DNA from: an uncultured Pelagibacteraceae bacterium
GTDB taxonomy: Bacteria > Pseudomonadota > Alphaproteobacteria > Pelagibacterales > Pelagibacteraceae
NCBI GenBank assembly: GCA_902569105.1
Contig: CACFTE010000006.1
Location: 1 to 61,961, forward strand
Length of the DNA stretch: 61,961 bases
Reading direction: 5' to 3'
Shown here: one piece after another, positions 8,649 to 21,251 of the stretch
How positions within the stretch are numbered: position 1 is the first letter of the stretch
Layout of the letters: each line of letters opens with the position of its first letter
Notes under the pieces: generated by a model
The model's database searches: none
Seen by the model: the letters and a program-made list of their open reading frames with translations, nothing else
What the model was told of the DNA's origin: nothing
Translations under genes and position numbers: made by a program

Positions 8649-9203
8649 ATGAAATACATTAATTTAATATTATTAGTTTTACTATCTGTATTTTTTTCCA
8701 GCAATGTGTTTTCTAATGAAAATGTTATTCTAGAATTACAAAAAGGTAAGAAAATTATTTTTATAAGGCATGCTCTTGCGCCTGGTAACGGCGATCCTTA
8801 CAACTTTGATCTCGATGATTGCGATACACAGAGAAATTTAGATGAAAGAGGAATAAAGCAATCAAAAAAAATCGGAGAATTCTTTAGAAAAAATAATATT
8901 CCAATTGATATAGTTTTATCTAGCGAATGGTGTAGATGTAAAGATACAGCTAAGTACGCTTTTGAAAATTTTAAAACTTTTAATGCTTTAAATTCTTTTT
9001 ATGATGCAAAATTCTTTAAATTTAAAAAAAAACAAATCAAGGCTCTAAAGAAATATATTGATGAATGGGATAGCAATAAGAATTTAGTTCTAGTAACACA
9101 TTATGTTGTTATATCTGAAATTTTAAATATAGGAGTTTCATCTGGTGAACTAGCTGTTACAAAAAAAAATTTAGGTTTGATAGGTAGGCTAGAAATTAAT
9201 TAA
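8649..9203 (+). CDS. exported histidine phosphatase superfamily protein
   Basis: This 184-aa protein starts with a signal peptide (about residues 1-22) and then shows the phosphoglycerate-mutase-like fold. The catalytic RH motif is at Arg40-His41 (IFIRHALAPG), a conserved Arg lies in SSEWCRCKDTA, and the second catalytic His is in LVTHYVVISEI near residue 151. A periplasmic phosphatase or phosphosugar phosphatase is likely. The DDCDTQRNLDERG segment is typical of the small secreted branch. The substrate is unknown. Confidence 0.87.
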   Translation: MKYINLILLVLLSVFFSSNVFSNENVILELQKGKKIIFIRHALAPGNGDPYNFDLDDCDTQRNLDERGIKQSKKIGEFFRKNNIPIDIVLSSEWCRCKDTAKYAFENFKTFNALNSFYDAKFFKFKKKQIKALKKYIDEWDSNKNLVLVTHYVVISEILNIGVSSGELAVTKKNLGLIGRLEIN

Positions 9204-10090
9204 TCATTTTTTAGTAATTTTGAAAAAAACTCATAATCTTGATACTTTGGATTGTTATCTCTTAGAAGAATTGAGTCAATTATAGCTATTAATCTAAATT
9301 TATTTTCTATTTTAAGTTTTTTATTTAAATTAAATTTAAAATAATAATTTAATAATGATCTCCTTAAATTCGGAAAAACTTTTCTTAATGCGGTAAAATA
9401 ACCTTCATGTTTTTTAAAGTAGTAAAATTTACTCCAAGTGTAATGATATGCTCGAAATATATCTGCGGCCTGATCATATTTGCGTTCGTGAGATTGTTGT
9501 CCAAAATGTTTAAATTTTAATTCTTTAACAACATACATCTTCATATTTTGTCTCTGTACTCTTTTGGATAAATCCCAAGTTTCAAAATAAATGAAAAAAT
9601 TTTCATCAAATATTTGTTTAGTAAACTTATTTTTATTTAATAGGATGGTTCCATCTATTATATCTACTTCATCTAAAACAAAATCTCTGTCTTTAGTTTT
9701 TAACTTAATATTTTTATTTTTATTAAATATGAAATAATTAGAATGGATATCCACATTATCGTATGACGGAGTAATCAAAGCAAATTCTTTAAAATTTTCA
9801 CATATTATTAAAAGTGATTGAATTAAGTCATTGCTTATCTCAATATCTGCAGGATTAATAAACACAAAATCATTTTTAGAACATTTAATAGCTAAATTCA
9901 CTGCTTTACCAAAGCCTAAGTTTTTATCGGGTATAATTACTTTAAGATTTTTGTAATAGTTTTCTAAACTTTTTATTTTTTGATTTCTAGAATTTTCGAC
10001 AACTATAATCTCATTATCATATTTTAAATTTTTTAATATTCTTAAAATATGCTCTTCACTGTTATAAGATAAAAATATAAGACTAATCAT
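9200..10090 (-). CDS. glycosyltransferase family 2 (rhamnosyltransferase-like)
   Basis: About 296 aa starting from the ATG at 10088-10090; an in-frame TTG two codons upstream is less likely. The N-terminus is a GT-A fold with ISLIFLSYNSEEHI, a GFGKAVNLAIK motif and an NPADIEIS segment in place of the usual DxD. The middle has the EVDIIDGTILLNK and DENFFIYFETWDLSKR elements found in WbbL-like transferases. It probably adds a sugar to a surface polysaccharide precursor on the inner membrane face. It resembles the gene at 15381, which flanks the deoxysugar cassette on the other side. Confidence 0.85.
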   Translation of the reverse strand: MISLIFLSYNSEEHILRILKNLKYDNEIIVVENSRNQKIKSLENYYKNLKVIIPDKNLGFGKAVNLAIKCSKNDFVFINPADIEISNDLIQSLLIICENFKEFALITPSYDNVDIHSNYFIFNKNKNIKLKTKDRDFVLDEVDIIDGTILLNKNKFTKQIFDENFFIYFETWDLSKRVQRQNMKMYVVKELKFKHFGQQSHERKYDQAADIFRAYHYTWSKFYYFKKHEGYFTALRKVFPNLRRSLLNYYFKFNLNKKLKIENKFRLIAIIDSILLRDNNPKYQDYEFFSKLLKND

Positions 10091-10137
10091 TATCAAACTG
10101 TTATAGCAGTTTTTTCAATATAAGTAGCAAAACTTGT

Positions 10138-10180: not shown

Positions 10181-10257
10181 GGCGGGGTAGCTCAGTTGGT
10201 TAGAGCGCGGGACTCATAAGCCCGAGGTCAGTGGTTCGATCCCACTTCCCGCTACCA
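10181..10257 (+). tRNA. tRNA-Met (anticodon CAU, elongator type)
   Basis: A complete 77-base cloverleaf including an encoded CCA end. The acceptor stem GGCGGGG pairs with TCCCGCT (G-U pairs at both ends), the D-arm is GCTC/GAGC, the T-arm AGTGG/CCACT and the anticodon CAT lies at 10215-10217. It lacks the unpaired first base of initiator tRNAs. The anticodon stem has an A-G mismatch next to the loop (positions 31/39). A CAU anticodon could also mark a lysidine-modified tRNA-Ile, but the G1/U72 acceptor pattern resembles alphaproteobacterial elongator tRNA-Met. Confidence 0.9.
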
Positions 10258-10270
10258 AATAAAATATTGA

Positions 10271-11020
10271 ATGAACAAAATTACATCAAAAAAAAAAATA
10301 TACGCAATTGTTATATGCTATAACAGTTCACCAGCAATTGAGTCACTTTATAACAAAATAGATAAAAGCTTATTTGATAAAATTTATTTTTTTGATGATA
10401 ACTCGACTGACGACTCATATGAAAAAGCTAAAAAATTTGATTGGGAAGTAATTAAAAATGACACAAACTTAGGGCATGGTGGAAATTTAAAAAAAGCTAT
10501 AGATACAGCTTTTTTAGATGGAGCAGATTTTGCGTGTGAAATTCATGCAGATAATCAATATAATCCAAATTCCTTAATAGCTGCTAAAGATTTTTTTGAA
10601 AATGATTATGGCTTAATTATTGGATCAAGGTTTGTAAATAAAAATCCATATTTAAAGGATGGTATGCCATTCTTAAGATATTTTGCTAATAAAATTATGA
10701 GTACATTTACAAGTAAATTACTATCAATAAATTTAACTGAATTTCATACAGGTTATAAAATTTTTGGTAAAAAATTTTATCAAAATGTTCCTTTTAAAAA
10801 CTGTTCTAATGATTATTTATTTTCCTTCCAAATAATTCTCCAAGCTAAATACTTTAATTTAAAATATGGAGAAATAAGCATTTCTTCTTCTTATGAGGGA
10901 TTTAGAACTTCTTGCAATTATTATAGAGGATTTTTTTATCTTTTAAATAATTTTAGAGAAATTTTATTTTATTTTTTAGCAAAGATGAAAGTTTTTAATA
11001 GTAAAGTTTTCCCAAAATAA
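10271..11020 (+). CDS. glycosyltransferase family 2 (polyprenyl-phosphate sugar synthase-like)
   Basis: This 249-aa GT-A enzyme starts 13 bases after the tRNA. It shows YAIVICYNSSPAIE, the acidic motif FFDDNSTDDS and a second acidic site EIHADNQYNP, consistent with the dolichol-phosphate-mannose synthase branch. A conserved IIGSRFVNKNP segment and TGYKIFGKKFY follow. There are no transmembrane helices at the C-terminus, so it is the short soluble form. It likely transfers a sugar to a lipid carrier or glycan in the same surface-sugar island. Confidence 0.85.
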   Translation: MNKITSKKKIYAIVICYNSSPAIESLYNKIDKSLFDKIYFFDDNSTDDSYEKAKKFDWEVIKNDTNLGHGGNLKKAIDTAFLDGADFACEIHADNQYNPNSLIAAKDFFENDYGLIIGSRFVNKNPYLKDGMPFLRYFANKIMSTFTSKLLSINLTEFHTGYKIFGKKFYQNVPFKNCSNDYLFSFQIILQAKYFNLKYGEISISSSYEGFRTSCNYYRGFFYLLNNFREILFYFLAKMKVFNSKVFPK

Positions 11021-11021
11021 A

Positions 11022-11744
11022 TTATTTTTTTTTTATTAATTTATTAAGTTTCTTTAAGCTCATCAAAGAATTAAGGGGTAAATTATTTGTCTTAACTTTA
11101 GATATTTTAATTTTCTTAACTTTAGGATTATCTTTTACAGCGAATTCATAAACAGATTTACCTGGTCCTCCAGCATTGATTACTCCTTTATAATTCAAAA
11201 TTTTTTCGAGAATGTTAACAAAGTCTTTATGGTACATGAAGTTAGTATACATGTTTGAAAAAGCCTTTTTGTGAATAAATGGATATTCAGTCATACATGC
11301 TCTTATTATTAATGAGTTCTCATACATCTGAACTGAACTTTCTCCTCCCAATTTTGACCAGGCATAATTGTTAATAGGCAGAACAGGATCTGTTTCTTCG
11401 TAAAGCCCCCCTTTTTTTGGATAAACATAATTTGTTGAAAAATAAATTAATTTAATTTTATGTAGAGAGCAGATTTTGACTACATTTGCAGTTCCAATAA
11501 TATTAAGTGATATGCTTTTATTAATATGTTTTGAATGAACTTCCATTGGTCTTGACAATCCAGCTAAATGCAAAAAATACTTCGGTTTGAATTTTTCAAT
11601 ACAGTTATTAATTGATTTCTCATCAAGAATATTAAGTTTTTTTTTATCAGGAAAAATATATTGATACTTAACACCTTTTTTTTGAAGAATTTTACCAAAT
11701 CTTCCATGTCCACCACTGACTAGAACTTTTAATCTATTTGACAT
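11022..11744 (-). CDS. RmlD-like dTDP-4-keto-6-deoxysugar reductase (short SDR)
   Basis: This 240-aa short-chain reductase has a nucleotide-binding GGHGRFG at residues 11-17, the catalytic Ser/Thr at 103-104 (FSTNYVYP) and the YxxxK pair at Tyr127/Lys131. It is about 50 residues shorter than typical RmlD. It is the last gene of the rfbB-rfbA-rfbC-methyltransferase set and overlaps the methyltransferase by 11 bases. It would reduce the 4-keto group to finish the dTDP-sugar. Strict identity with rfbD is uncertain given the length and the intervening methyltransferase. Confidence 0.75.
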   Translation of the reverse strand: MSNRLKVLVSGGHGRFGKILQKKGVKYQYIFPDKKKLNILDEKSINNCIEKFKPKYFLHLAGLSRPMEVHSKHINKSISLNIIGTANVVKICSLHKIKLIYFSTNYVYPKKGGLYEETDPVLPINNYAWSKLGGESSVQMYENSLIIRACMTEYPFIHKKAFSNMYTNFMYHKDFVNILEKILNYKGVINAGGPGKSVYEFAVKDNPKVKKIKISKVKTNNLPLNSLMSLKKLNKLIKKK

Positions 11745-12933
11745 GACTTATCCAAATTCCTCTTTTTTTTTTAAATGATTTTTCTTTTTTTAAAATTTCT
11801 TCTTTATGATTCCAAGAACACAACACAGAAACATCTGGAGGATTTTTTCTAAAATATGATATCGGCATAATTGGTATATGTTTACCTGGAGAAAACTTAC
11901 CAATTTTTTCTTTAGTAGAGTCTGCTATATAATCAATTTGGTCTGATCCAATGTTACAATAATTAAATACTGTTGAGCTTTTAGCAGAAGCAGCATAGCC
12001 AGCAATTTTCTTTCCAATTGATTTATAATAATTTATTTTATCTTTAAATCTTCTCTTTGAAATTTCACAATTTTTTTTGAATTTCAAACAAGATGAAATA
12101 TTATTTAATTTTAATCTTTTCTCATATTTCAAAATTTTATTTATTCTTTTAGATATTTTTCTTTCACCACTTCTTGCTATTATATATCTCATTGAACCAC
12201 CATGAGTTTTTTGACTTATTGCGTCAATTAAATCAAAACCAAAATTTTTAAATATTGTTTTGACTGAATGAAGTGAAAATATGAATACATGTGCGTCATA
12301 TATTTGATCATAAGAAACTTTTTTAAACATTGATCCAAGATAAGGCTCTTCAAAAATAAAAACACCTTTTGATGATAATAGATAATCTATTGAACGAATT
12401 ACATCTTTTAAATTTGGTATATGACAAATAACATTTGCAGCGCAAATCAAATCAGTATTTTTTTTAAATTTTTTAAATTTCCTTATGTTTTTTGTGTTAA
12501 AGAAGCCATTAAATACATTAACATCAAAATTTTTTTTAGAAAAGTAAGCAACATTTTTTGAAGGTTCAAAACCTAAGTGGTTTATATTTTTCATTTTAAA
12601 ATTTTTTAAAAATGAACCATCATTTGATCCAATTTCAATTACATTAGACTTTTTATTTAAAAATTTTTTATAAGCCCAACTAAAATATTTTTTAAAATGA
12701 CCAATCATAAACTTAGATTTGCTTGTATAGAATGGATAATTGTTATTAAATATATGTGGAGATTTTGGGTGATCATTTACCTGAAATAGATAATTATCTT
12801 TTGAAAAACCAACTTCGAGTTTATAAAAGAATTCCTTTTTAAAATTTTTTTTATCAAGAAAACCATTTGCCATCGGCATTTTTCCAAATGACATAAAAGG
12901 TTTCATTTTCTTTCCCGAAATTTTACATCTCAT
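11734..12933 (-). CDS. sugar C-methyltransferase (NovU/TylCIII-like three-domain family) with degenerate zinc site
   Basis: This 399-aa protein has the three-part layout of dTDP-ketosugar C-methyltransferases: an N-terminal segment with FGKMPMANGFL (residues 16-26), an SAM-binding core with EIGSNDGSF (100-108), and a C-terminal domain with GYAASAKSSTVFNY (312-325) and FSPGKHIPI (347-355). Family members methylate carbon 3 or 5 of a keto-deoxysugar. Two oddities are visible. The N-terminal zinc ribbon normally needs two Cys pairs, but only Cys3 remains (CKISG instead of CxxCG, and the second pair is absent). The usual YHEH catalytic motif reads YDAH at 212-215. It is embedded in the rfb genes with 4- and 11-base overlaps. 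Confidence 0.85.
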   Translation of the reverse strand: MRCKISGKKMKPFMSFGKMPMANGFLDKKNFKKEFFYKLEVGFSKDNYLFQVNDHPKSPHIFNNNYPFYTSKSKFMIGHFKKYFSWAYKKFLNKKSNVIEIGSNDGSFLKNFKMKNINHLGFEPSKNVAYFSKKNFDVNVFNGFFNTKNIRKFKKFKKNTDLICAANVICHIPNLKDVIRSIDYLLSSKGVFIFEEPYLGSMFKKVSYDQIYDAHVFIFSLHSVKTIFKNFGFDLIDAISQKTHGGSMRYIIARSGERKISKRINKILKYEKRLKLNNISSCLKFKKNCEISKRRFKDKINYYKSIGKKIAGYAASAKSSTVFNYCNIGSDQIDYIADSTKEKIGKFSPGKHIPIMPISYFRKNPPDVSVLCSWNHKEEILKKEKSFKKKRGIWISHVK

Positions 12934-13460
12934 CTTTTAAAGTTTAAAAATTCATCAAAAGATTTACCTTTCTTATCTTTCTTTGAAATTATTTTTTTAC
13001 CCCCTGGCCATTTAATATTTAGTTTTTGATCATTCCATTTTATCGTAACCTCACTTTTTGCAGACCTATAATTGTTATTTCCATAAAAAATAATATTTTC
13101 ATTAGCCAAACCTAAAATGCCATGTGCAAAACCAGATGGTATTAACAAAGATTTACAGTTTTTGTCAGATAAAATGATTTTATAATGTTTTCCAAAAGTT
13201 TTAGATTTTTTTCTACAATCTATAACAACGTCCATTATTTTACCTTTGATAACAGATATAAATTTTTCTTGAGTATCTTGAGTTTGAAGGTGCATACCTC
13301 TCAAAACATTCTTTTTTGATTTAGACATACACCAAAAAATAAATTTTTTTTCTCTAAATAATTTACTTAAATAAATTTCTCTAAAGTATCCTCTTGTATC
13401 ATTAAATCTCAGTCCATTTATAACTTTTAAACCAGAAAATTTTGTTTTTAAGATTTTCAT
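12930..13460 (-). CDS. rfbC: dTDP-4-dehydrorhamnose 3,5-epimerase (RmlC family)
   Basis: This 176-aa cupin epimerises dTDP-4-keto-6-deoxyglucose at C3 and/or C5. The catalytic His is in RGMHLQ (His57) and the Tyr acid is probably Tyr131 (FYGNNNYRSAKSE). The IPSGFAHGILGL stretch and the C-terminal WNDQKLNIKWP are diagnostic. It overlaps rfbA and the methyltransferase by 4 bases each. Because the next gene is a C-methyltransferase, it could act mainly as a 3-epimerase, as proposed for NovW, but sequence alone does not decide this. Confidence 0.92.
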   Translation of the reverse strand: MKILKTKFSGLKVINGLRFNDTRGYFREIYLSKLFREKKFIFWCMSKSKKNVLRGMHLQTQDTQEKFISVIKGKIMDVVIDCRKKSKTFGKHYKIILSDKNCKSLLIPSGFAHGILGLANENIIFYGNNNYRSAKSEVTIKWNDQKLNIKWPGGKKIISKKDKKGKSFDEFLNFKR

Positions 13461-14323
13461 TTAATGAGCTTATTTAAATATTGGGAATAATTACAATTTC
13501 CATAAAATTTTATTGCTTCTTTAATATTTTTCTTATTTATCCATTTATTACTAAGCGCAATTTCCTCTAAACAAGCAATTTTAAATCCTTGTCGGTTTTC
13601 AATTGCTGATACAAAGTTGCTTGTTTTATAAAAATCATCTAATGAACCTGTATCAAGCCAAGCTCCACCTCTACCAATATAATCTGCATTAAGCTTATTT
13701 TTTGTTTTATACTTTTTAAGCAGGTCAGTAATCTCTAGTTCTTTTCTTTTAGAGGGTTTTAATTCTTTTGAGTATTTAATTACTTTATTATCAAAAAAAT
13801 ATAGGCCAGTTATTGCTAAATCTGATACAAATTTTTTGGGCTTTTCTTTAATTAATATAATTTTCTTATTTTTAACTTTTGCCACTCCATATTTTTCTGG
13901 ATTTGCTACTCTATGTAATAAAACTTTTGCACCTTGTTTAAGTTTAATACATTCAAGTAATTTTGAAGATAAATATTGTCCATAGAAAAAATTATCACCG
14001 AGTATTAATGCTACGTTATTTTTTCCTATAAATTTTTCACCTAATATAAATGCATCTGGTAAACCTTTAGGGCTATTTTGTTCTTTATAAGATAGATTGA
14101 TACCAAGTCTCTTCCCATCAGGGAGAATTTTTTTGTATTGATTAAGTTGTCCTTTATTTACAATAATTAATATATCCCTTATTTTAGCTAACATCAAAAT
14201 TGATAAAGGATAAAAAATTAGAGGTTTATCATAAATTGGTAACAACTGTTTATTAACAGCCTTGGTCAATGGACTCATACGAGTTCCCATACCACCAGAT
14301 AAAATAATCCCTTTTTTTATCAT
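13457..14323 (-). CDS. rfbA: glucose-1-phosphate thymidylyltransferase
   Basis: This 288-aa enzyme joins dTTP and glucose-1-phosphate to form dTDP-glucose, the first step of the cassette. The nucleotide loop GGMGTR is at residues 10-15 with KQLLP following, and the metal-binding Asp is Asp110 in LILGDNFFYG. Length and the YDKPLIFYPLS motif match RmlA. It overlaps rfbB and rfbC by 4 bases, so it sits in one tightly coupled operon. Confidence 0.95.
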   Translation of the reverse strand: MIKKGIILSGGMGTRMSPLTKAVNKQLLPIYDKPLIFYPLSILMLAKIRDILIIVNKGQLNQYKKILPDGKRLGINLSYKEQNSPKGLPDAFILGEKFIGKNNVALILGDNFFYGQYLSSKLLECIKLKQGAKVLLHRVANPEKYGVAKVKNKKIILIKEKPKKFVSDLAITGLYFFDNKVIKYSKELKPSKRKELEITDLLKKYKTKNKLNADYIGRGGAWLDTGSLDDFYKTSNFVSAIENRQGFKIACLEEIALSNKWINKKNIKEAIKFYGNCNYSQYLNKLIK

Positions 14324-15333
14324 TTTTTAGTTCCTAATCTTTTTAAAATATCTTTTCTCCTAAAGTTTAAAAAAAAATTTTGATTATTCATGTACCAATC
14401 TAAAGTTTTTTCTAATCCATCCATAAATTTTACTTTAGGTTTCCAATTTAACTTTTTCTTAATTTTATTACTATCTATAGCATATCTTGTATCATGACCA
14501 GGTCTATCCTTTACAAATTTAATTTTAACATTATTTCCTAATTTGAATTTTTTCTTTGAAATATTAATTAACTTTTTAACTAATTCTAAATTATCTAAAT
14601 TATAATTTGATCCAATATTATAAAATTCGCCTTTTCTTCCTGATTTATAAATTTTTATAAGTGCCTCACAATGATCTTTCACAAAGATCCATTCACGAGA
14701 ATTTCCTCCTTTTCCATAAATTGGTAATTTTTTGTTATTCAAAATGTTATAAACAAGTTTTGGAATTAATTTTTCAGGGTGTTGTCTTGGTCCATAATTA
14801 TTTGAGCAATTAGTTATTATCCCATCGATTTTATATGTTCGAACATAAGAGCTAACCAAATGATCCGATGAAGCCTTTGAAGCTGAATAGGGAGAACTAG
14901 GTTTATATGAATCTTCCTCTTTGGATCGTCCTCTAGTCACATCTCCATATACTTCATCAGTAGATATATGAATAAGCTTTATTTTTTTTTTGTTGTTTCT
15001 TATAATTTCTAGCAAATTGAAAGTTCCCAGAATATTAGAATAAATAAAATTTTTAGGACCATCTATGGATCTATCAACATGGGTTTCTGCAGCAAGATTA
15101 AAAATTGCTTTTGGTTTATAAATACTGATTATTTTTTTTAGTTTAACTTTATTACAAAGATCACATTTAATAAATTTATAATTTTTATTTTTAACAAATT
15201 CTTTAGTATTATAAAAATTTGATGCATATGTTACCTTATCTATATTAAGGACATTAAAATTTTTACTTAATAAAAGATCTATTAAGTTACTTCCTATAAA
15301 GCCTAATCCACCGGTAACTATAATTTTGTGCAT
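14320..15333 (-). CDS. rfbB: dTDP-glucose 4,6-dehydratase
   Basis: This 337-aa extended SDR enzyme converts dTDP-glucose to dTDP-4-keto-6-deoxyglucose. NAD-binding GGLGFIGSN is at residues 8-16, the catalytic Thr125-Asp126-Glu127 triad (HISTDEVYG) is present and the YxxxK pair is Tyr149/Lys153. It is the promoter-proximal gene of the five-gene cassette. The 47 bases to the divergent glycosyltransferase at 15381 should hold promoters for both directions. Confidence 0.96.
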   Translation of the reverse strand: MHKIIVTGGLGFIGSNLIDLLLSKNFNVLNIDKVTYASNFYNTKEFVKNKNYKFIKCDLCNKVKLKKIISIYKPKAIFNLAAETHVDRSIDGPKNFIYSNILGTFNLLEIIRNNKKKIKLIHISTDEVYGDVTRGRSKEEDSYKPSSPYSASKASSDHLVSSYVRTYKIDGIITNCSNNYGPRQHPEKLIPKLVYNILNNKKLPIYGKGGNSREWIFVKDHCEALIKIYKSGRKGEFYNIGSNYNLDNLELVKKLINISKKKFKLGNNVKIKFVKDRPGHDTRYAIDSNKIKKKLNWKPKVKFMDGLEKTLDWYMNNQNFFLNFRRKDILKRLGTKK

Positions 15334-15380
15334 TATTTTTTTTACATCAATAAACTAATTAAGTATACTTGTTAAATTCT

Positions 15381-16241
15381 ATGAATATAGATTTAAACGA
15401 TATAACATTTATCATAGTTAGTTATAAATCAAAAAAAGTTATTTATAATTGTATAAATTCATTACCTCAATTTTCAAAAATAATAATAGTTGAAAATTCT
15501 TCCGATAAAGAATTAAAAAGTGATTTAGAATCAAAATATGACAATATTGAGATTATTTTAAATAATAATATAGGAATGGGTGCATCAAACAATATAGGTA
15601 TTAAGAAATGTAACACAAAGTTTGCATATGTACTTAATCCAGATGTAATTTTTAGGGAAAATACGTTTTCAAATTTAATAAAATCTGTTCAATCAATTGA
15701 CGATTTTTCAATTATATCTCCGATTAATGAAAACAAAAAATTTCCTAATTATGAAATAAAAAAAAAATATAGACAGTCTCACGAAAATATAATTGAAGTT
15801 GATACTGTTGATGGTTTTTCGATGTTAATTAATAAATCCAAGTTTGATGATAGTGAATTTTTTGACGAGAATTTTTTTTTATATCTTGAAAATACAGATC
15901 TATGTTTAAGGCAGCGAATTAAAAATCAAAAAATATTTATTATAAAAAACTCTGAAATTAATCATATGGGTTCATATAGTACTAAGTTAGATCAATCAGA
16001 AAGTTTAGAGTACATTAGAAATTGGCATTGGATGTGGTCTAAATTTTATTTTAATAAAAAACATAATGGTTATTTAGTTGCTTTAATAAAAATTTCAGGA
16101 AATCTACTTTCAGCAATTATTAAGTATCTTTTATATTCACTGTCTTTTAATACACATAAAAAAAAAATTTACTCAATGCGTATTCTAGGAGTAATAAATT
16201 CAATTATTGGTAAAAAATCTTTCCTAAGACCAACTGATTAA
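15381..16241 (+). CDS. glycosyltransferase family 2 (rhamnosyltransferase-like)
   Basis: About 286 aa from the ATG at 15381; an upstream TTG at 15369 would add four residues. The GT-A N-terminus reads ITFIIVSYKSKKVI with the IGMGASNNIGIKK motif and LNPDVIFREN, the acidic site. A VDTVDGFSMLINK and DENFFLYLENTDLCLR element follows, as in WbbL-type transferases. It is divergent from the deoxysugar cassette and is a good candidate to use its dTDP-sugar product. The C-terminal helix may associate with the membrane. Confidence 0.87.
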   Translation: MNIDLNDITFIIVSYKSKKVIYNCINSLPQFSKIIIVENSSDKELKSDLESKYDNIEIILNNNIGMGASNNIGIKKCNTKFAYVLNPDVIFRENTFSNLIKSVQSIDDFSIISPINENKKFPNYEIKKKYRQSHENIIEVDTVDGFSMLINKSKFDDSEFFDENFFLYLENTDLCLRQRIKNQKIFIIKNSEINHMGSYSTKLDQSESLEYIRNWHWMWSKFYFNKKHNGYLVALIKISGNLLSAIIKYLLYSLSFNTHKKKIYSMRILGVINSIIGKKSFLRPTD

Positions 16242-16762
16242 TGTCCAGGAAAAGAAATTAAACTATCAACTTTATATTTTTTCTTTAATAAGTCGTTTCC
16301 ACCAAGATCAAACAAGTTTATAACAAAAATAAAACCTGCAACATTTCCTTGAGACATTTCTACTAATTTCGCAGCTGCTTCCGCTGTTCCACCAGTTGCT
16401 ATTAGGTCATCAATAATTAATATTTTTTCATCTTTATTGATTGAGTCCTTATGAACTTCAATCGTCGCGGTTCCATATTCTAATTTGAAATCAATAGAAT
16501 GGACATCTGCTGGCAGCTTATTTTTCTTTCTTAACATGATAAATGGTTTTTTTAATATATAAGAAACCGCTGATGCGAATACAAATCCTCTAGATTCGAC
16601 AGCTGCAATTTTATCAAAATCATAAGATATAGATTTTTTAACAATTTGATCTATAGTTTCAGCAAATGCTTTCTCATTTTTAATAAGAGTAGTTATATCT
16701 CTAAATAAAATACCTTTTTTTGGATAATCGGGAATAGATCTAATAAATTCTTTTAAATTCAT
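16238..16762 (-). CDS. apt: adenine phosphoribosyltransferase
   Basis: This 174-aa enzyme salvages adenine with PRPP to form AMP. The PRPP-binding motif IIDDLIATGGTAEAA is clear (about residues 115-129), and the N-terminal IPDYPKKGILFRDITTL and AVESRGFVFASAV stretches are Apt-specific. It is divergent from mtnP with 41 bases between start codons. MtnP releases adenine, so the pair makes metabolic sense. It converges with the upstream glycosyltransferase gene with a 4-base overlap. Confidence 0.96.
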   Translation of the reverse strand: MNLKEFIRSIPDYPKKGILFRDITTLIKNEKAFAETIDQIVKKSISYDFDKIAAVESRGFVFASAVSYILKKPFIMLRKKNKLPADVHSIDFKLEYGTATIEVHKDSINKDEKILIIDDLIATGGTAEAAAKLVEMSQGNVAGFIFVINLFDLGGNDLLKKKYKVDSLISFPGH

Positions 16763-16803
16763 AATAGTAATTTATAAATACTAAATAGTTTAAATCTTAT
16801 TAT

Positions 16804-17676
16804 ATGACAATAAACAAATTAGCAATTATTGGTGGAAGTGGACTTTATGATGTTGAAGAATTTAAAAGTAGAGAGTTATTGGACTTAAACACTGCTTGGG
16901 GAAAGCCATCAGATAAAATTTTAAAAACAAATTATAAAAATAAAGAAGTATTTTTTCTTCCACGACATGGAAGAGGACATTTTATTAATCCTTCTAATAT
17001 AAATTTTAGAGCAAATATTGATGCTTTAAAACAATTGGGAGTGTCAGATATTGTATCCGTGTCAGCAGTAGGATCTCTTAAAGAAGAATTGCCACCAGGT
17101 AAATTTGTAATTGTAGATCAGTTTATTGATAGAACCTTTGCTAGAAATAAAACCTTCTTTGAGGACGAAATAGTAGCGCACGTATCGATGGCACATCCTA
17201 CATCCAATGGATTGATGAATGCTTGCGAAGAAGCATTAAAAAAAGAAAAAATAGAATACCAAAGAGGAGGAACATATGTTGTTATGGAAGGTCCACAATT
17301 CTCAACATTAGCAGAATCAAATTTATATAGATCTTGGAAAGCTGATGTAATTGGAATGACAAATATGCCCGAGGCAAAGTTGGCAAGAGAAGCAGAAATA
17401 AGATACGCATCTGTTTCAATGATTACAGATTACGATTGCTGGCATCCAGATCATGAAAATGTTGATGTTCAACAAGTAATCAAAGTTCTTTTAGAAAATG
17501 CAGCTAAAGCTAAAAATATGATTAAAAGTCTGATAGAAAATTTTGAAAATTATATTGACCCTAAAGATCCAACAAATAATTGTTTAGATGTTGCAATCAT
17601 TACTTCACCAGAAAAAAGAACAGATAAAACAAAAGAAAAATTAAAGTTTGTAGCAGGAAGAGCTTTAAATAAATGA
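16804..17676 (+). CDS. mtnP: S-methyl-5'-thioadenosine phosphorylase
   Basis: This 290-aa enzyme splits methylthioadenosine with phosphate into adenine and methylthioribose-1-phosphate. Recognition rests on the IIGGSGLYDVEEF N-terminus, FLPRHGRGHFINPSNINFRANI, the GGTYVVMEGPQFSTLAES active-site stretch and NMPEAKLAREAEI. It opens a run of co-directional genes joined by overlaps (4 bases with the next). Substrate is supplied by the SpeD-SpeE fusion at the end of the same run. Confidence 0.95.
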   Translation: MTINKLAIIGGSGLYDVEEFKSRELLDLNTAWGKPSDKILKTNYKNKEVFFLPRHGRGHFINPSNINFRANIDALKQLGVSDIVSVSAVGSLKEELPPGKFVIVDQFIDRTFARNKTFFEDEIVAHVSMAHPTSNGLMNACEEALKKEKIEYQRGGTYVVMEGPQFSTLAESNLYRSWKADVIGMTNMPEAKLAREAEIRYASVSMITDYDCWHPDHENVDVQQVIKVLLENAAKAKNMIKSLIENFENYIDPKDPTNNCLDVAIITSPEKRTDKTKEKLKFVAGRALNK

Positions 17677-18467
17677 AACTTATTTACCTAATATTAGTTT
17701 TTATTCTATCGTTTAATAATTCATTTGCTATTAAATATAACATAGGTGATACAATTAAAGGAACACTTGATTTAAATAAAAATTTTAAAATTAATTTATC
17801 AAATGGTGAATGGGAAGTAATCAGGAAAGAGTTCAGCAGTGTTTATAGTATAAGACAATATATAATTGGTATTGGTAAGGTCAAAAATAATAGAATTGTT
17901 GAACTAATAGAAGTTTATGAAGGAGAACTAGGAAGAAATGTTGATCAGATTGACAACATTATCCAAGAATTAGTTTTTCATGACAAACATGATGGATGTT
18001 ACGAAAGACCAGAATATTATTTAGTTGAGCTTTACAAAAAAGGTAGCACACATAATTGTATGGTTGTAAGACATTTTGACGTTAGAAAAGAACTTAATAC
18101 TCCCGATTCTAATTGGGGAAAAGCCGCTGCTGCAGCTTATAATTATGCTCTGAAAAATAATCCTGAAATAGAAATACCTGAAATCTTTCTTGAAAGTGAA
18201 CATAGTTATTTTTCTAGACTTGTGAGAGGTAATTGGATGAGAGTTTCATACTTTTTAGATCCATACGAATTAGATTCACCTAAATTAAATTTATTGACCG
18301 AGGGAACTTCTGAATTTCATAGAAGTAACATAAATAGATTTCCAGAACATAAAAAAATTATGCAAAAATTCATTTCAATATCATCGAAAAGACATATTGA
18401 ATTTGAAAAAATAATTAAATCAAGAGGACGACATAGATTAAAATTAAACAAATATTTAACCGATTAA
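17673..18467 (+). CDS. exported protein of unknown function
   Basis: A 264-aa protein with a clear signal peptide (residues 1-19, ending NNSFA) and no further membrane helix. The mature part is mixed in charge with two cysteines at 109 and 129 that could form a periplasmic disulfide. It contains an Ala-rich helix (GKAAAAAYNYAL) and a basic C-terminus (IIKSRGRHRLKLNKYL). I do not recognise a family. It overlaps mtnP by 4 bases and mtnA by 1 base, so it is translated with methionine-salvage enzymes although it appears exported, which is unexpected. Confidence 0.8.
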   Translation: MKLIYLILVFILSFNNSFAIKYNIGDTIKGTLDLNKNFKINLSNGEWEVIRKEFSSVYSIRQYIIGIGKVKNNRIVELIEVYEGELGRNVDQIDNIIQELVFHDKHDGCYERPEYYLVELYKKGSTHNCMVVRHFDVRKELNTPDSNWGKAAAAAYNYALKNNPEIEIPEIFLESEHSYFSRLVRGNWMRVSYFLDPYELDSPKLNLLTEGTSEFHRSNINRFPEHKKIMQKFISISSKRHIEFEKIIKSRGRHRLKLNKYLTD

Positions 18468-19540
18468 TGAAAATTGAAGGAAAAAATTATCGTACGATTT
18501 GGTTTGAAAAAAATATAGTTAAAATTATTGATCAAACTAAACTACCTCACAAATTTATAATTAAAGATATAAAAAATGTTAAAGACTCAGTTAATGCAAT
18601 AAGAAATATGGAAGTTAGAGGAGCTCCACTAATTGGAGCCATGGCAGCTTATGGTTTGGTATTAGCGATTTTGGAAAAAAATGATCAAACATATCTTAAA
18701 AAAGCATCAGAGGATTTAATTAATTCTAGACCTACAGCAATTAATCTAAAATGGTCAGTAGATAGGATGATGAAAAAATTATCTGGTGTAAAAAGTGATA
18801 AAATTTTGCAAATTGCATTAAATGAAGCTATCGAAATATGTGAAGAAGATATCAGATTTTGTGAAAATATTGGTTTAAACGGTCTAAAAATAATTGAAGA
18901 AATTTATAATAAAAAAAAAGATACAGTTAAAATTTTAACTCATTGTAATGCGGGGTGGCTTGCAACTATAAATTGGGGAACAGCTACATCACCAATTTAT
19001 CATGCTCATAAAAAAGGAATTCCAGTACATGTTTGGGTCGATGAAACAAGGCCAAGAAATCAAGGTGCTAATCTAACCTCATTTGAACTAAATGAGGAGG
19101 GTATTAAAAATACTATTATTGCAGATAACACAGGCGGAATTTTAATGCAAAGGGGTGAAGTAGATATGTGTATAGTTGGAACAGATAGAACCTTGTCCAA
19201 TGGAGACGTTTGTAACAAAATCGGAACTTATCTAAAAGCTCTTGCTGCCTATGACAATAACATTCCTTTTTATGTTGCTTTACCCAGTTCAACAATTGAT
19301 TGGAATTTAAAAGATTATAAAGAAATTCCGATTGAAGAGAGAAGCTCTGAAGAATTATCACATATTGAAGGTTTAGATGAGAATGGTAATTTGAATAAAA
19401 TTCAAATTTATCCACAAAAAAGTAAATCAATGAATCTAGCATTTGATATAACTCCTGCAAAATATGTTACAGCTTTAATAACTGAAAAAGGTGTATGTGA
19501 TGCATCAAATTTAGGACTAAAAAAATTATTTGATAAGTAA
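18467..19540 (+). CDS. mtnA: methylthioribose-1-phosphate isomerase
   Basis: This 357-aa enzyme converts methylthioribose-1-phosphate to methylthioribulose-1-phosphate. The catalytic Cys160 (THCNAGWLAT) and Asp240 (VGTDRT) fall at the same numbers as in characterised MtnA. Other markers are VRGAPLIGAMAAYG near residues 50-63 and the DNTGGILM segment. Related eIF2B-like proteins lack this Cys/Asp pair, so the assignment is firm. The start overlaps the previous stop by one base (TAATG). Confidence 0.95.
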   Translation: MKIEGKNYRTIWFEKNIVKIIDQTKLPHKFIIKDIKNVKDSVNAIRNMEVRGAPLIGAMAAYGLVLAILEKNDQTYLKKASEDLINSRPTAINLKWSVDRMMKKLSGVKSDKILQIALNEAIEICEEDIRFCENIGLNGLKIIEEIYNKKKDTVKILTHCNAGWLATINWGTATSPIYHAHKKGIPVHVWVDETRPRNQGANLTSFELNEEGIKNTIIADNTGGILMQRGEVDMCIVGTDRTLSNGDVCNKIGTYLKALAAYDNNIPFYVALPSSTIDWNLKDYKEIPIEERSSEELSHIEGLDENGNLNKIQIYPQKSKSMNLAFDITPAKYVTALITEKGVCDASNLGLKKLFDK

Positions 19541-19541
19541 G

Positions 19542-20204
19542 ATGAATGAAGATTTAAAACAGCAAGTTATAGATTATTCTCTTAAATTGAATTCTACAAA
19601 TCTTTCACCACTTAGATCTGGAAATTTATCTGTGAGAGCTAAAATAGATGATGTTGATGGATTTTATATAACTCCTTCAGGTATTAAATATGAAAAACTT
19701 AAATTAACGGATATTGTTTTTATGTCTTTGAAGACAGAATATGATTATTTAAAAATTGCAAACTCAGGACTAAATCCATCTTCAGAGTGGAGATTTCATC
19801 AAGATATTTATAGAAAAAAACCTGAAGCAAAAGCTATAGTTCACACTCATTCTGCCCACGCAACTGCTATCTCTACTCATAGAAAATCTATCCCCCCTTT
19901 TCATTATATGATTGCTTTGATGGGTGGTGACGACATAAAATGTGCAGAATATGCAACTTTTGGAACTAAAGAATTATCTCAAAACATTTTAAAAGCACTA
20001 GAGAAAAGAAAAGCTTGCTTAATGGCAAATCACGGACAGATTGCATTTGCAGAAAGTTTAAGTAAAGCTTTCGAACTTGCACAAGAGGTAGAAAACATTT
20101 GCCACCAATACTTTCTTGCGATAAAGCTAGGAGAACCAAAGAATCTGACGTTTGCAGAAATGCAAAAAATTTTAGAAAAAGTAAAAGGTTATAAGAGGGG
20201 ATAA
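19542..20204 (+). CDS. class II aldolase, L-fuculose-phosphate-aldolase-like; probable methylthioribulose-1-phosphate aldolase
   Basis: About 220 aa from the ATG at 19542, one base after the mtnA stop; a TTG at 19530 is in frame but lies inside mtnA. Zinc ligands His101, His103 and His164 and the acid Glu82 (SSEWRFH) are visible. The IPPFHYMIALMGGDDIKCAEYATFG block is typical of fuculose-1-phosphate aldolases rather than MtnB dehydratases. Directly after mtnP and mtnA, it most likely cleaves methylthioribulose-1-phosphate to dihydroxyacetone phosphate and methylthioacetaldehyde, as known for Ald2-type enzymes. A MtnB role is the alternative. Confidence 0.8.
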   Translation: MNEDLKQQVIDYSLKLNSTNLSPLRSGNLSVRAKIDDVDGFYITPSGIKYEKLKLTDIVFMSLKTEYDYLKIANSGLNPSSEWRFHQDIYRKKPEAKAIVHTHSAHATAISTHRKSIPPFHYMIALMGGDDIKCAEYATFGTKELSQNILKALEKRKACLMANHGQIAFAESLSKAFELAQEVENICHQYFLAIKLGEPKNLTFAEMQKILEKVKGYKRG

Positions 20205-20210
20205 TTTTTT

Positions 20211-21251
20211 ATGGTTAAAGTCGGTGAGCATATCACTCTTGATATCATAGGCACTACGGGAGAATATGAACCGTCTTTTTTCGAGGGTTTAGTTCATAAG
20301 ATTGCTGAAAAGGCTAAAGTTACTGTTCTAAATATATCAAAATATAAATTTGAACCACAAGGTTTTACTTTAGTAGCTTTACTTGCAGAAAGTCATATTA
20401 GCTTTCATACTTTCCCAGAACATGGAATAATTAGTTTCGATTTTTTTACATGTGGAAAGGTATCCCCAAGTGTAGCTTTAGATGTAATAAAAAGTGAAAT
20501 TAAGTGCAAAAGGATTGTAAAAAAGTCTTTTGACCGTGATACAATTGAAAATTATTTTGATACTTCTAGCACCTCTGGAATGCAAAAATCTTATGTCGTT
20601 AAAGATGTGCTTGAGGATTTTGTGTCTAAAGTCGGTCAACATGTCCAAATTTTAAATTTAGAAGAATTTGGAAAATCTTTATTTATAGATAAAGATTTAC
20701 AAGTTGCTTCGTGTGATGAGCACTTATATAGCTCGACGTTTGTAAATTCTGGACTAAAATTAAATTCCAAAAAGGATAGAGCAGCTATAATTGGTGGTGG
20801 AGACGGTGGTGTAGCAAGAGAGTGTATATCAAAAAACTTTGAGTTTATTGATTGGTATGAACTAGATCCAGAAGTAGTAGAAGTTTGCGATAAACATCTT
20901 GGAACAATTGGTCAAAAAGCAACTGAAAAGAATTCAGTTAAATGTGTTTGGGGAGATGCATTTGAGAGTATAAAAAAAGTGGAAACTGATACCTATGATA
21001 AAATATATATTGATTTAAATGACGACCAATTTTGTATAGATCTTGCTGCAAAAAATATGGATCAAATTATAAGAATTCTTAAACCTAATGGAGTTGTTAC
21101 TGCCCAGGTTGGAAGTCAAGATAAAAGACCAAAACAGGTCGAAAATTGGAAAGATGTATTCAATAAAAACTTTGGAAATGCTACCCTTGATAGAGTTTAT
21201 ATTCCTAGTTTTGATAGTTCATGGAATTTTTATACATCTATTAATCACTAA
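20211..21251 (+). CDS. SpeD-SpeE fusion: S-adenosylmethionine decarboxylase plus spermidine synthase
   Basis: This 346-aa protein joins two enzymes. Residues 1-115 form a prokaryotic AdoMet decarboxylase with the self-cleavage site ESHISFHTFPE: Ser61 would become the pyruvoyl group, with His66 and Cys81 (FFTCG) as partners. Residues 125-346 form an aminopropyltransferase with GGGDGG (195-200), YELDPEVVEV (216-225) and the active-site YDKIYIDLNDD region. One chain could therefore convert AdoMet and putrescine into spermidine and methylthioadenosine, which mtnP then degrades. Such fusions have been described in bacteria. It starts 6 bases after the aldolase stop with an AGAGGGG ribosome site. 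Confidence 0.92.
   Translation: MVKVGEHITLDIIGTTGEYEPSFFEGLVHKIAEKAKVTVLNISKYKFEPQGFTLVALLAESHISFHTFPEHGIISFDFFTCGKVSPSVALDVIKSEIKCKRIVKKSFDRDTIENYFDTSSTSGMQKSYVVKDVLEDFVSKVGQHVQILNLEEFGKSLFIDKDLQVASCDEHLYSSTFVNSGLKLNSKKDRAAIIGGGDGGVARECISKNFEFIDWYELDPEVVEVCDKHLGTIGQKATEKNSVKCVWGDAFESIKKVETDTYDKIYIDLNDDQFCIDLAAKNMDQIIRILKPNGVVTAQVGSQDKRPKQVENWKDVFNKNFGNATLDRVYIPSFDSSWNFYTSINH

Follow-up and report, generated by a model that had tools for sequence, protein, structure and literature searches.

A rhamnose-type gene island with a sugar C-methyltransferase and a short reductase in an uncultured Pelagibacteraceae bacterium: a candidate branched-deoxysugar pathway

The stretch of DNA analyzed here (the window) is 61,961 nucleotides long and is the entire contig C6 (CACFTE010000006.1) of an uncultured Pelagibacteraceae bacterium, whose assembly (GCA_902569105.1) amounts to 1.04 Mb in 32 contigs and is 83.9% complete. 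Between positions 11022 and 15333 of its minus strand lies a block of five overlapping genes that code, in reading order, for RmlB, RmlA, RmlC, a sugar C-methyltransferase (MT), and a short RmlD-like reductase (SDR), with successive overlaps of 4, 4, 4, and 11 bases in the coordinates of the open reading frames (ORFs). A first-pass annotation of the window had described these ORFs, and all five are confirmed, on the minus strand, at the coordinates that it gave. Lengths are in amino acids (aa).

14320 to 15333, minus strand: RmlB, dTDP-glucose 4,6-dehydratase, 337 aa (TIGR01181, 419 bits for a cut-off of 365)
13457 to 14323, minus strand: RmlA, glucose-1-phosphate thymidylyltransferase, 288 aa (TIGR01207, 351 bits, just below the cut-off of 360.65)
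12930 to 13460, minus strand: RmlC, dTDP-4-keto-6-deoxyglucose 3,5-epimerase, 176 aa (TIGR01221, 161.6 bits, above the cut-off of 155.75)
11734 to 12933, minus strand: sugar C-methyltransferase of the TcaB9/KijD1 type, 399 aa (PF08421, PF13489, PF08484; phmmer matches to KijD1 and TcaB9)
12292 to 12294, minus strand: codon GCA of the MT, Ala214, at the position of TcaB9 Glu224 (from the alignment; numbering from PDB titles)
11022 to 11744, minus strand: short RmlD-like SDR, probable 4-ketoreductase, 240 aa (PF04321 over residues 6–149, 83.8 bits)

RmlA, RmlB, and RmlC are those of the textbook dTDP-L-rhamnose pathway, and in RmlC the residues His57 and Tyr126 occupy the catalytic positions, as judged from the alignment with solved epimerases. 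The adjoining genes for family-2 glycosyltransferases are weakly rhamnosyltransferase-like. The block differs from that pathway in having the 240-aa SDR in the place of RmlD and an MT within the operon. A dTDP-6-deoxyhexose pathway joined to a sugar C-methyltransferase has a branched deoxysugar as a reasonable product, and the general idea of a C-methylated deoxysugar, put forward in the first-pass annotation, is plausible. The model chosen there was the noviose set, novT/V/W/U/S, which contains the same five functional classes. However, the RmlC of the window is not NovW-like and no antibiotic genes are seen beside the block, for which a rhamnose island carrying a short substitute for RmlD and an added C3-type methyltransferase is the better description. 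We consider it about an even chance that the product of the block is a dTDP-activated C-methylated 6-deoxy-L-hexose, with C3 as the most likely branch point (3-C-methyl-rhamnose type).

The short reductase and its association with RmlABC

The SDR fails the RmlD equivalog model TIGR01214, with 72.2 bits for a cut-off of 224 and a match limited to residues 6–151, and it has the motifs GGHGRFG (nucleotide binding) and YAWSK (YxxxK). Its distribution was followed in an evenly drawn sample of 201 genomes of the genus, the window's own included, with thresholds of E up to 1e-15 for SDR, 1e-30 for RmlA, and 1e-10 for MT; many of these assemblies are incomplete, and an absent gene may correspond to an absent contig. 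SDR is present in 66 genomes, RmlA in 94, and both in 60 (Fisher p = 8e-20, uncorrected for relatedness). Forty of the 66 SDRs are within 4 kb of RmlA and on the same strand. An MT is absent within 4 kb of 24 of them; eight others (including the one of the window) have an adjacent MT on the same strand, and the remaining eight have an MT nearby. No MT is detected in 23 of the 66 genomes with SDR, and a run of RmlABC and SDR containing no MT is found in 22 of 90 fetched loci. Both counts speak against the five genes being one dedicated set, as had been proposed.

The 90 loci (L037–L076, L115–L154, and L260–L269) were chosen for a match to MT or SDR, and the window itself is outside the set. Several share one genome, L076 comes from the window's own genome, and L269 belongs to another genus. 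In L063 and L069, which hold two of the 22 runs, an MT is present in another part of the stretch. Because its RmlC scores below the threshold, L055 does not enter the count of complete RmlABC runs, and L053 lacks RmlB. Synteny labels were assigned by blastp to the proteins of the window and of the loci, with Pfam verification for some.

RmlD scores above the curated cut-off of TIGR01214 in 2 of the 201 genomes, a strict test, as only 9 of 14 control genomes have a match above it. Because RmlD is scarce in the genus and RmlABC-SDR runs occur without MT, the SDR is most likely the genus's usual substitute for the RmlD rhamnose reductase and is not specific to noviose, a role that we infer from co-occurrence. 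In the tree of SDR, 16 of the 22 MT-less runs fall in a 25-row clade (94/94, not starred) to which the protein of the window does not belong. Five of the remaining runs are in a second clade and one is elsewhere, and no starred set of up to half of the rows contains the window's SDR. Among 289 genomes of the class, matches with E up to 1e-25 are found in three: besides the window's own, a second genome of its genus and a genome from a different genus (32% identity). A single-sequence structure model of SDR (pLDDT 33.6) was discarded.

Family, active site, and neighborhoods of the methyltransferase

The MT matches PF08421 (38.7 bits), PF13489 (70.5 bits), and PF08484 (148.3 bits), all above cut-off; these three domains are presumably common to NovU and TylC3. 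By phmmer it resembles KijD1 and TcaB9 over the whole length (E of 1e-79 or better, 34–35% identity). Both are C-3′-methyltransferases and are its nearest solved relatives. The AlphaFold model of MT has a pLDDT of 94.8, and its predicted fold superimposes on KijD1 over 394 residues with a root-mean-square deviation (rmsd) of 1.1 Å (Z 58.6) and on TcaB9 over 397 residues with an rmsd of 1.4 Å (Z 57.4). Next in the comparison of the predicted fold comes MtmC, the D-mycarose 3-C-methyltransferase (Z 52.5), and other methyltransferases have Z of 19.1 or less.

As active-site set we used Tyr76, His181, Tyr222, Glu224, and His225, the residues that PDB titles give as mutated in TcaB9. All 122 aligned rows have the equivalents of Tyr76, Tyr222, and His225, and 121 have that of His181; the MT of the window retains four of the five residues. 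The alignment also contains an N-terminal site of four cysteines that presumably bind zinc, as in TcaB9 and as the name of the Pfam domain indicates. The window's MT keeps one of the four. For rows from outside the genus, each is kept in 77–80 of 81; for the Pelagibacter-genus rows, the counts are 17, 8, 8, and 9 of 41. The first two columns, but not the last two, are partly blank from row trimming. The full-length ORFs of six Pelagibacter-genus MTs begin without the first two cysteine columns. The 80 named relatives used for comparison were chosen by likeness to TcaB9 (80 of 583).

The 41 Pelagibacter-genus rows belong to an MT tree in which each locus is represented by its single best MT, cut to the part matching TcaB9. 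In a tree of 49 rows, the window's MT groups with 15 other Pelagibacter-genus MTs in a starred clade and has a longish end branch (0.48). Among these 15, 14 have SDR307 and/or a DegT aminotransferase nearby, or an SDR-DegT fusion. Named loci from other bacteria, selected for likeness to TcaB9, likewise combine MT, DegT, and SDR307 (e.g., L202, L204, L211, L219, L225, and L234). In a separate Pelagibacter group, some MTs are beside RmlABC and SDR and others beside NDP-hexose 2,3-dehydratases. Three loci, L058, L064, and L065, have RmlABC, MT, and SDR in one run with neither 2,3-dehydratase nor DegT, and their MTs belong to another clade than that of the window. Hence, the five-gene set probably arose separately.

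L055 (4518–10426) contains RmlB, RmlA, RmlC, SDR, MT, a 2,3-dehydratase, and a Gfo/Idh oxidoreductase, all in one direction (Pfam). These enzyme classes are those of the mycarose pathway: L-mycarose-type synthesis proceeds through RmlA, RmlB, a 2,3-dehydratase, a 3-ketoreductase, a C3-methyltransferase, an epimerase, and a 4-ketoreductase. The window's block differs in lacking the 2,3-dehydratase and the Gfo/Idh oxidoreductase. In L059 and L066 one finds the order RmlB-RmlA-RmlC-SDR-MT followed by an NDP-hexose 2,3-dehydratase, also of the mycarose type, with Pfam verification in L055 only.

Fused genes are found in several loci. In L069 (7237–9804) a PF08484 methyltransferase with its four N-terminal cysteines intact is preceded, in the same protein, by an SDR (Pfam), and the MT-matching proteins of L070–L073 have, as in L069, about 850 aa. 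In L042 (9181–11061) a short SDR is fused to a DegT aminotransferase (626 aa; Pfam), and the 600-aa protein of L267 is taken for the same fusion by length alone. The window's own genome has a second PF08484 methyltransferase (414 aa, four cysteines intact) within the stretch C2:12000–31900 (L076). An epimerase-like gene is its neighbor, and this further sugar-gene site is flanked by LepA and GyrB.

The candidate pathway and its alternatives

In the candidate pathway, RmlA would form dTDP-glucose from dTTP and glucose-1-phosphate, RmlB would convert it to the 4-keto-6-deoxyglucose, and RmlC would epimerize C3 and C5 to give 4-keto-L-rhamnose, the presumed substrate of MT. There, His215 (His225 in TcaB9) would act as the base that takes the proton from C3, and the resulting enolate would receive at C3 the methyl of S-adenosylmethionine (AdoMet). 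The SDR, standing in for RmlD, would then reduce C4, with a presumably L-rhamnose-type configuration, and the family-2 glycosyltransferase divergent from rmlB would transfer the product, probably to the cell surface. The order of the steps is putative.

Several observations weigh against this reading. The equivalent of Glu224 is present in 121 of the 122 rows, and also in eight further relatives outside this alignment, and is replaced by alanine (Ala214) in the MT of the window only. Because GCA differs from GAA by a single base, an assembly error is possible at this codon; as it stands, activity with Ala214 is an unproven prediction from sequence. SDR307 and DegT, the usual partners in the MT clade, are both missing beside the block, so that the ancestral substrate was probably an amino sugar. 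Full-length RmlD-like proteins under the TIGR01214 cut-off exist in the genus, with up to 187 bits. As for the methylated carbon, the structures of the family in the search list are all C3 enzymes, so the argument from the nearest structure is biased, and one solved 3,5-epimerase, 1nxm, scores below NovW against the window's RmlC.

The main alternative is that RmlABC and SDR make ordinary dTDP-L-rhamnose and that MT is a passenger, either without activity, in decay, or with a different sugar nucleotide as its substrate. We regard this as possible, though less probable than a C-methylated product. The MT-less runs, one of them at the same site in L136, fit plain rhamnose, and the unique loss of the Glu224 equivalent, the missing partners, and the end branch of the tree fit a passenger. 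Yet the MT is an intact ORF overlapping both of its neighbors, and on average it is under purifying selection (dN/dS of about 0.2–0.3 in five pairs with the window, as for SDR, although with dS above 1 these values are unreliable). Among the 38 columns with at least 95% of one residue, it deviates at the Glu224 position alone. From its place between RmlC and SDR, co-transcription with them is probable, and the five genes recur as a set with an MT of another clade.

The first-pass annotation had suggested methylation at C5, as in noviose, with dTDP-5-C-methyl-rhamnose as a possible product. C3 and C5 both flank the 4-keto carbon, so chemistry alone does not decide between them, and the gene composition is that of the noviose set. 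Even so, C5 methylation is disfavored and we consider it improbable, C3 methylation (a 3-C-methyl-rhamnose-type sugar) being most likely because the solved relatives are C3 enzymes, because both kinds of partner genes in the related clusters of the genus, 2,3-dehydratase and DegT, belong to known C3-methyltransferase settings, and because RmlC matches 3,5-epimerases. The best solved matches of RmlC are of this kind (E around 1e-29, as opposed to 3e-12 for NovW). NovW is listed as a 3-epimerase in the part of PMC9095892 that was available, where it is also said that the specificity of these epimerases is not predicted by active-site residues. The MT comparisons include no NovU sequence. A search for NovW (PDB 2c0z) in 392 genomes from the genus of G201 (Streptomyces, locus L164) gave 18 matches (E up to 1e-85) with identities of 71% at best; hence, no novobiocin-type cluster and no NovU were found in those 392 genomes. 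The literature search returned nothing on the NovU methyltransferase, the nogalose C-methyltransferase, or a branched-chain-sugar C-methyltransferase in lipopolysaccharide. L-nogalose, from nogalamycin, was considered as a five-enzyme C3 case; the part of PMC9764417 at hand has neither rhamnose nor C-methyl, and the case was given no weight.

Slightly less probable still is a C-methyl amino-deoxysugar made by the block together with an aminotransferase whose gene lies in another part of the genome: the MTs of the clade are linked to DegT and the genome has five PF01041 matches, but the best (C2:125899–126651, 136 bits) spans only profile positions 23–271, compared with 333 bits for the linked DegT of L038, the other four have 34 bits or less, and neither SDR307 nor DegT lies beside the block.

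The C3-branched rhamnose-type sugar thus preferred can be set beside known systems. Branched deoxysugars are mostly known from antibiotics and from a few pathogen surfaces, and the pathways of TcaB9 and KijD1 are those of D-tetronitrose and kijanose-type sugars. The window's MT shares with TcaB9 and KijD1 the fold, a whole-length homology of 34–35%, and the active-site histidine and tyrosine positions. It differs from them in the lost zinc cysteines, in the change from Glu224 to alanine, in the lack of adjoining amino- or 2-deoxysugar enzymes, and in its setting, which is probably the cell surface rather than an antibiotic. Virenose, from the lipopolysaccharide of Coxiella, is likewise a branched 6-deoxysugar of a Gram-negative O-antigen, for which in silico routes with a TylCIII-like C3-methyltransferase have been drawn (PMC3539893). 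In the part of that work available, the TDP route has no RmlC step and its 4-ketoreductase is not confidently predicted, and a GDP route is also proposed. For C-methylated sugars in Pelagibacterales, no title was found among the matches listed, in a search whose coverage leaves out most subscription journals.

A joint reading of the loci, which we hold as tentative and rather doubtful, would see in SAR11 a modular branched-deoxysugar system working from a few island sites. It would make rhamnose (RmlABC-SDR), a mycarose-type sugar (with 2,3-dehydratase, Gfo/Idh oxidoreductase, and MT added), a C-methyl amino sugar (SDR307-MT-SDR-DegT), and the product of the window's set. In the latter, an amino-sugar MT lacking the zinc cysteines would have lost its two partners and the otherwise invariant glutamate and would now serve the hydroxy-sugar of rhamnose synthesis, so that a surface sugar of the 3-C-methyl-L-rhamnose type is made with the short RmlD of the SAR11 type. 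If streamlined marine bacteria do have modular sets for C-methyl sugars, SAR11 spends scarce AdoMet on surface chemistry, a short reductase replacing RmlD in the genus has been named, and the MT is a natural test of a sugar C-methyltransferase without the zinc site and with a near-invariant active-site glutamate changed.

The island site and its history

The block is placed between apt/mtnP and a tRNA-Met gene, a setting that the first-pass annotation had missed. As the first-pass annotation had noted, family-2 glycosyltransferases (PF00535) are adjacent, and three of them flank it:

15369 to 16241, plus strand: family-2 glycosyltransferase, divergent from rmlB (PF00535; rhamnosyltransferase model TIGR01556, 40.8 bits for a cut-off of 200.55)
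10271 to 11020, plus strand: family-2 glycosyltransferase, polyprenyl-phosphate sugar synthase-like (PF00535; PpgS and AglJ models below cut-off)
10181 to 10257, plus strand: tRNA-Met (CAT), probable island border (tRNA scan)
9200 to 10096, minus strand: family-2 glycosyltransferase, beyond the tRNA (PF00535; TIGR01556, 31.9 bits for a cut-off of 200.55)

The five genes and the three glycosyltransferase genes have a GC content of 22–27%, compared with 29.3% in the whole window. The divergent glycosyltransferase is the likely user of the dTDP-sugar; in 15 of 20 MT-less RmlABC-SDR loci, RmlB has a homolog of it as divergent neighbor. A scan of the window for promoter-like sites gave 47, for a mean of 58.6 in shuffled sequences, and the promoter and terminator scan was not used.

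As in the window, variable sugar genes are found near a tRNA-Met in seven of eight related stretches (L136, L135, L038, L260, L045, L058, and L154); the eighth, L142, begins at a contig start and is perhaps too short to include it. By coordinates, the tRNA-Met directly adjoins SDR in L136, L045, and L058, and in L038 it shares 6 bases with the end of the DegT gene. No rRNA match is found in the window, and therefore the block is not the rRNA-linked O-chain cluster described in the accessible part of PMC11898729, the main text of which has no occurrence of rhamnose, methyltransferase, or deoxy. For phage evasion, the role suggested in the first-pass annotation, no evidence was found, though no test aimed at it was made.

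The same site can be identified without MT in L136, from another genome of the genus, in the order MtnP, Apt, glycosyltransferase, RmlB, RmlA, RmlC, and SDR. After SDR there is an ORF of 122 aa, followed by the same further genes as in the window; homologs of the glycosyltransferases at 9200–10096 and 10271–11020 are missing from this site. On the same apt side, L260 has RmlB, RmlA, RmlC, a DUF4422-like protein (as in L058), SDR307, MT, SDR, and DegT. When the window is compared with the MT-less L136 and L135, RmlA has 86–87% identity and RmlB 74–78% (78% for the syntenic L136), whereas RmlC has 56% and SDR 57–59%; between L136 and L135, RmlC has 76% and SDR 72%. The low identity of RmlC and SDR beside the high identity of RmlA fits the replacement of an RmlC-MT-SDR segment. 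MT and SDR thus probably arrived in such a segment, swapped into an older RmlABC-SDR rhamnose island at the apt/tRNA-Met site, although the direction of the swap is conjectural. One comparison counts against giving this signal much weight: among the 20 loci without MT, the five pairs with RmlA identity of at least 84% range from 55 to 86% in RmlC. Hence, the signal is not unique to the window and such replacement may not be rare.

Beside the island, at 16238–21251, the window codes for a phosphoribosyltransferase (apt), a PNP_UDP_1 protein (mtnP-like), an IF-2B protein (mtnA-like), and a class II aldolase (Pfam), and it has AdoMet decarboxylase and spermidine synthase in one ORF. By their domains, these genes would fit methylthioadenosine salvage and polyamine synthesis.

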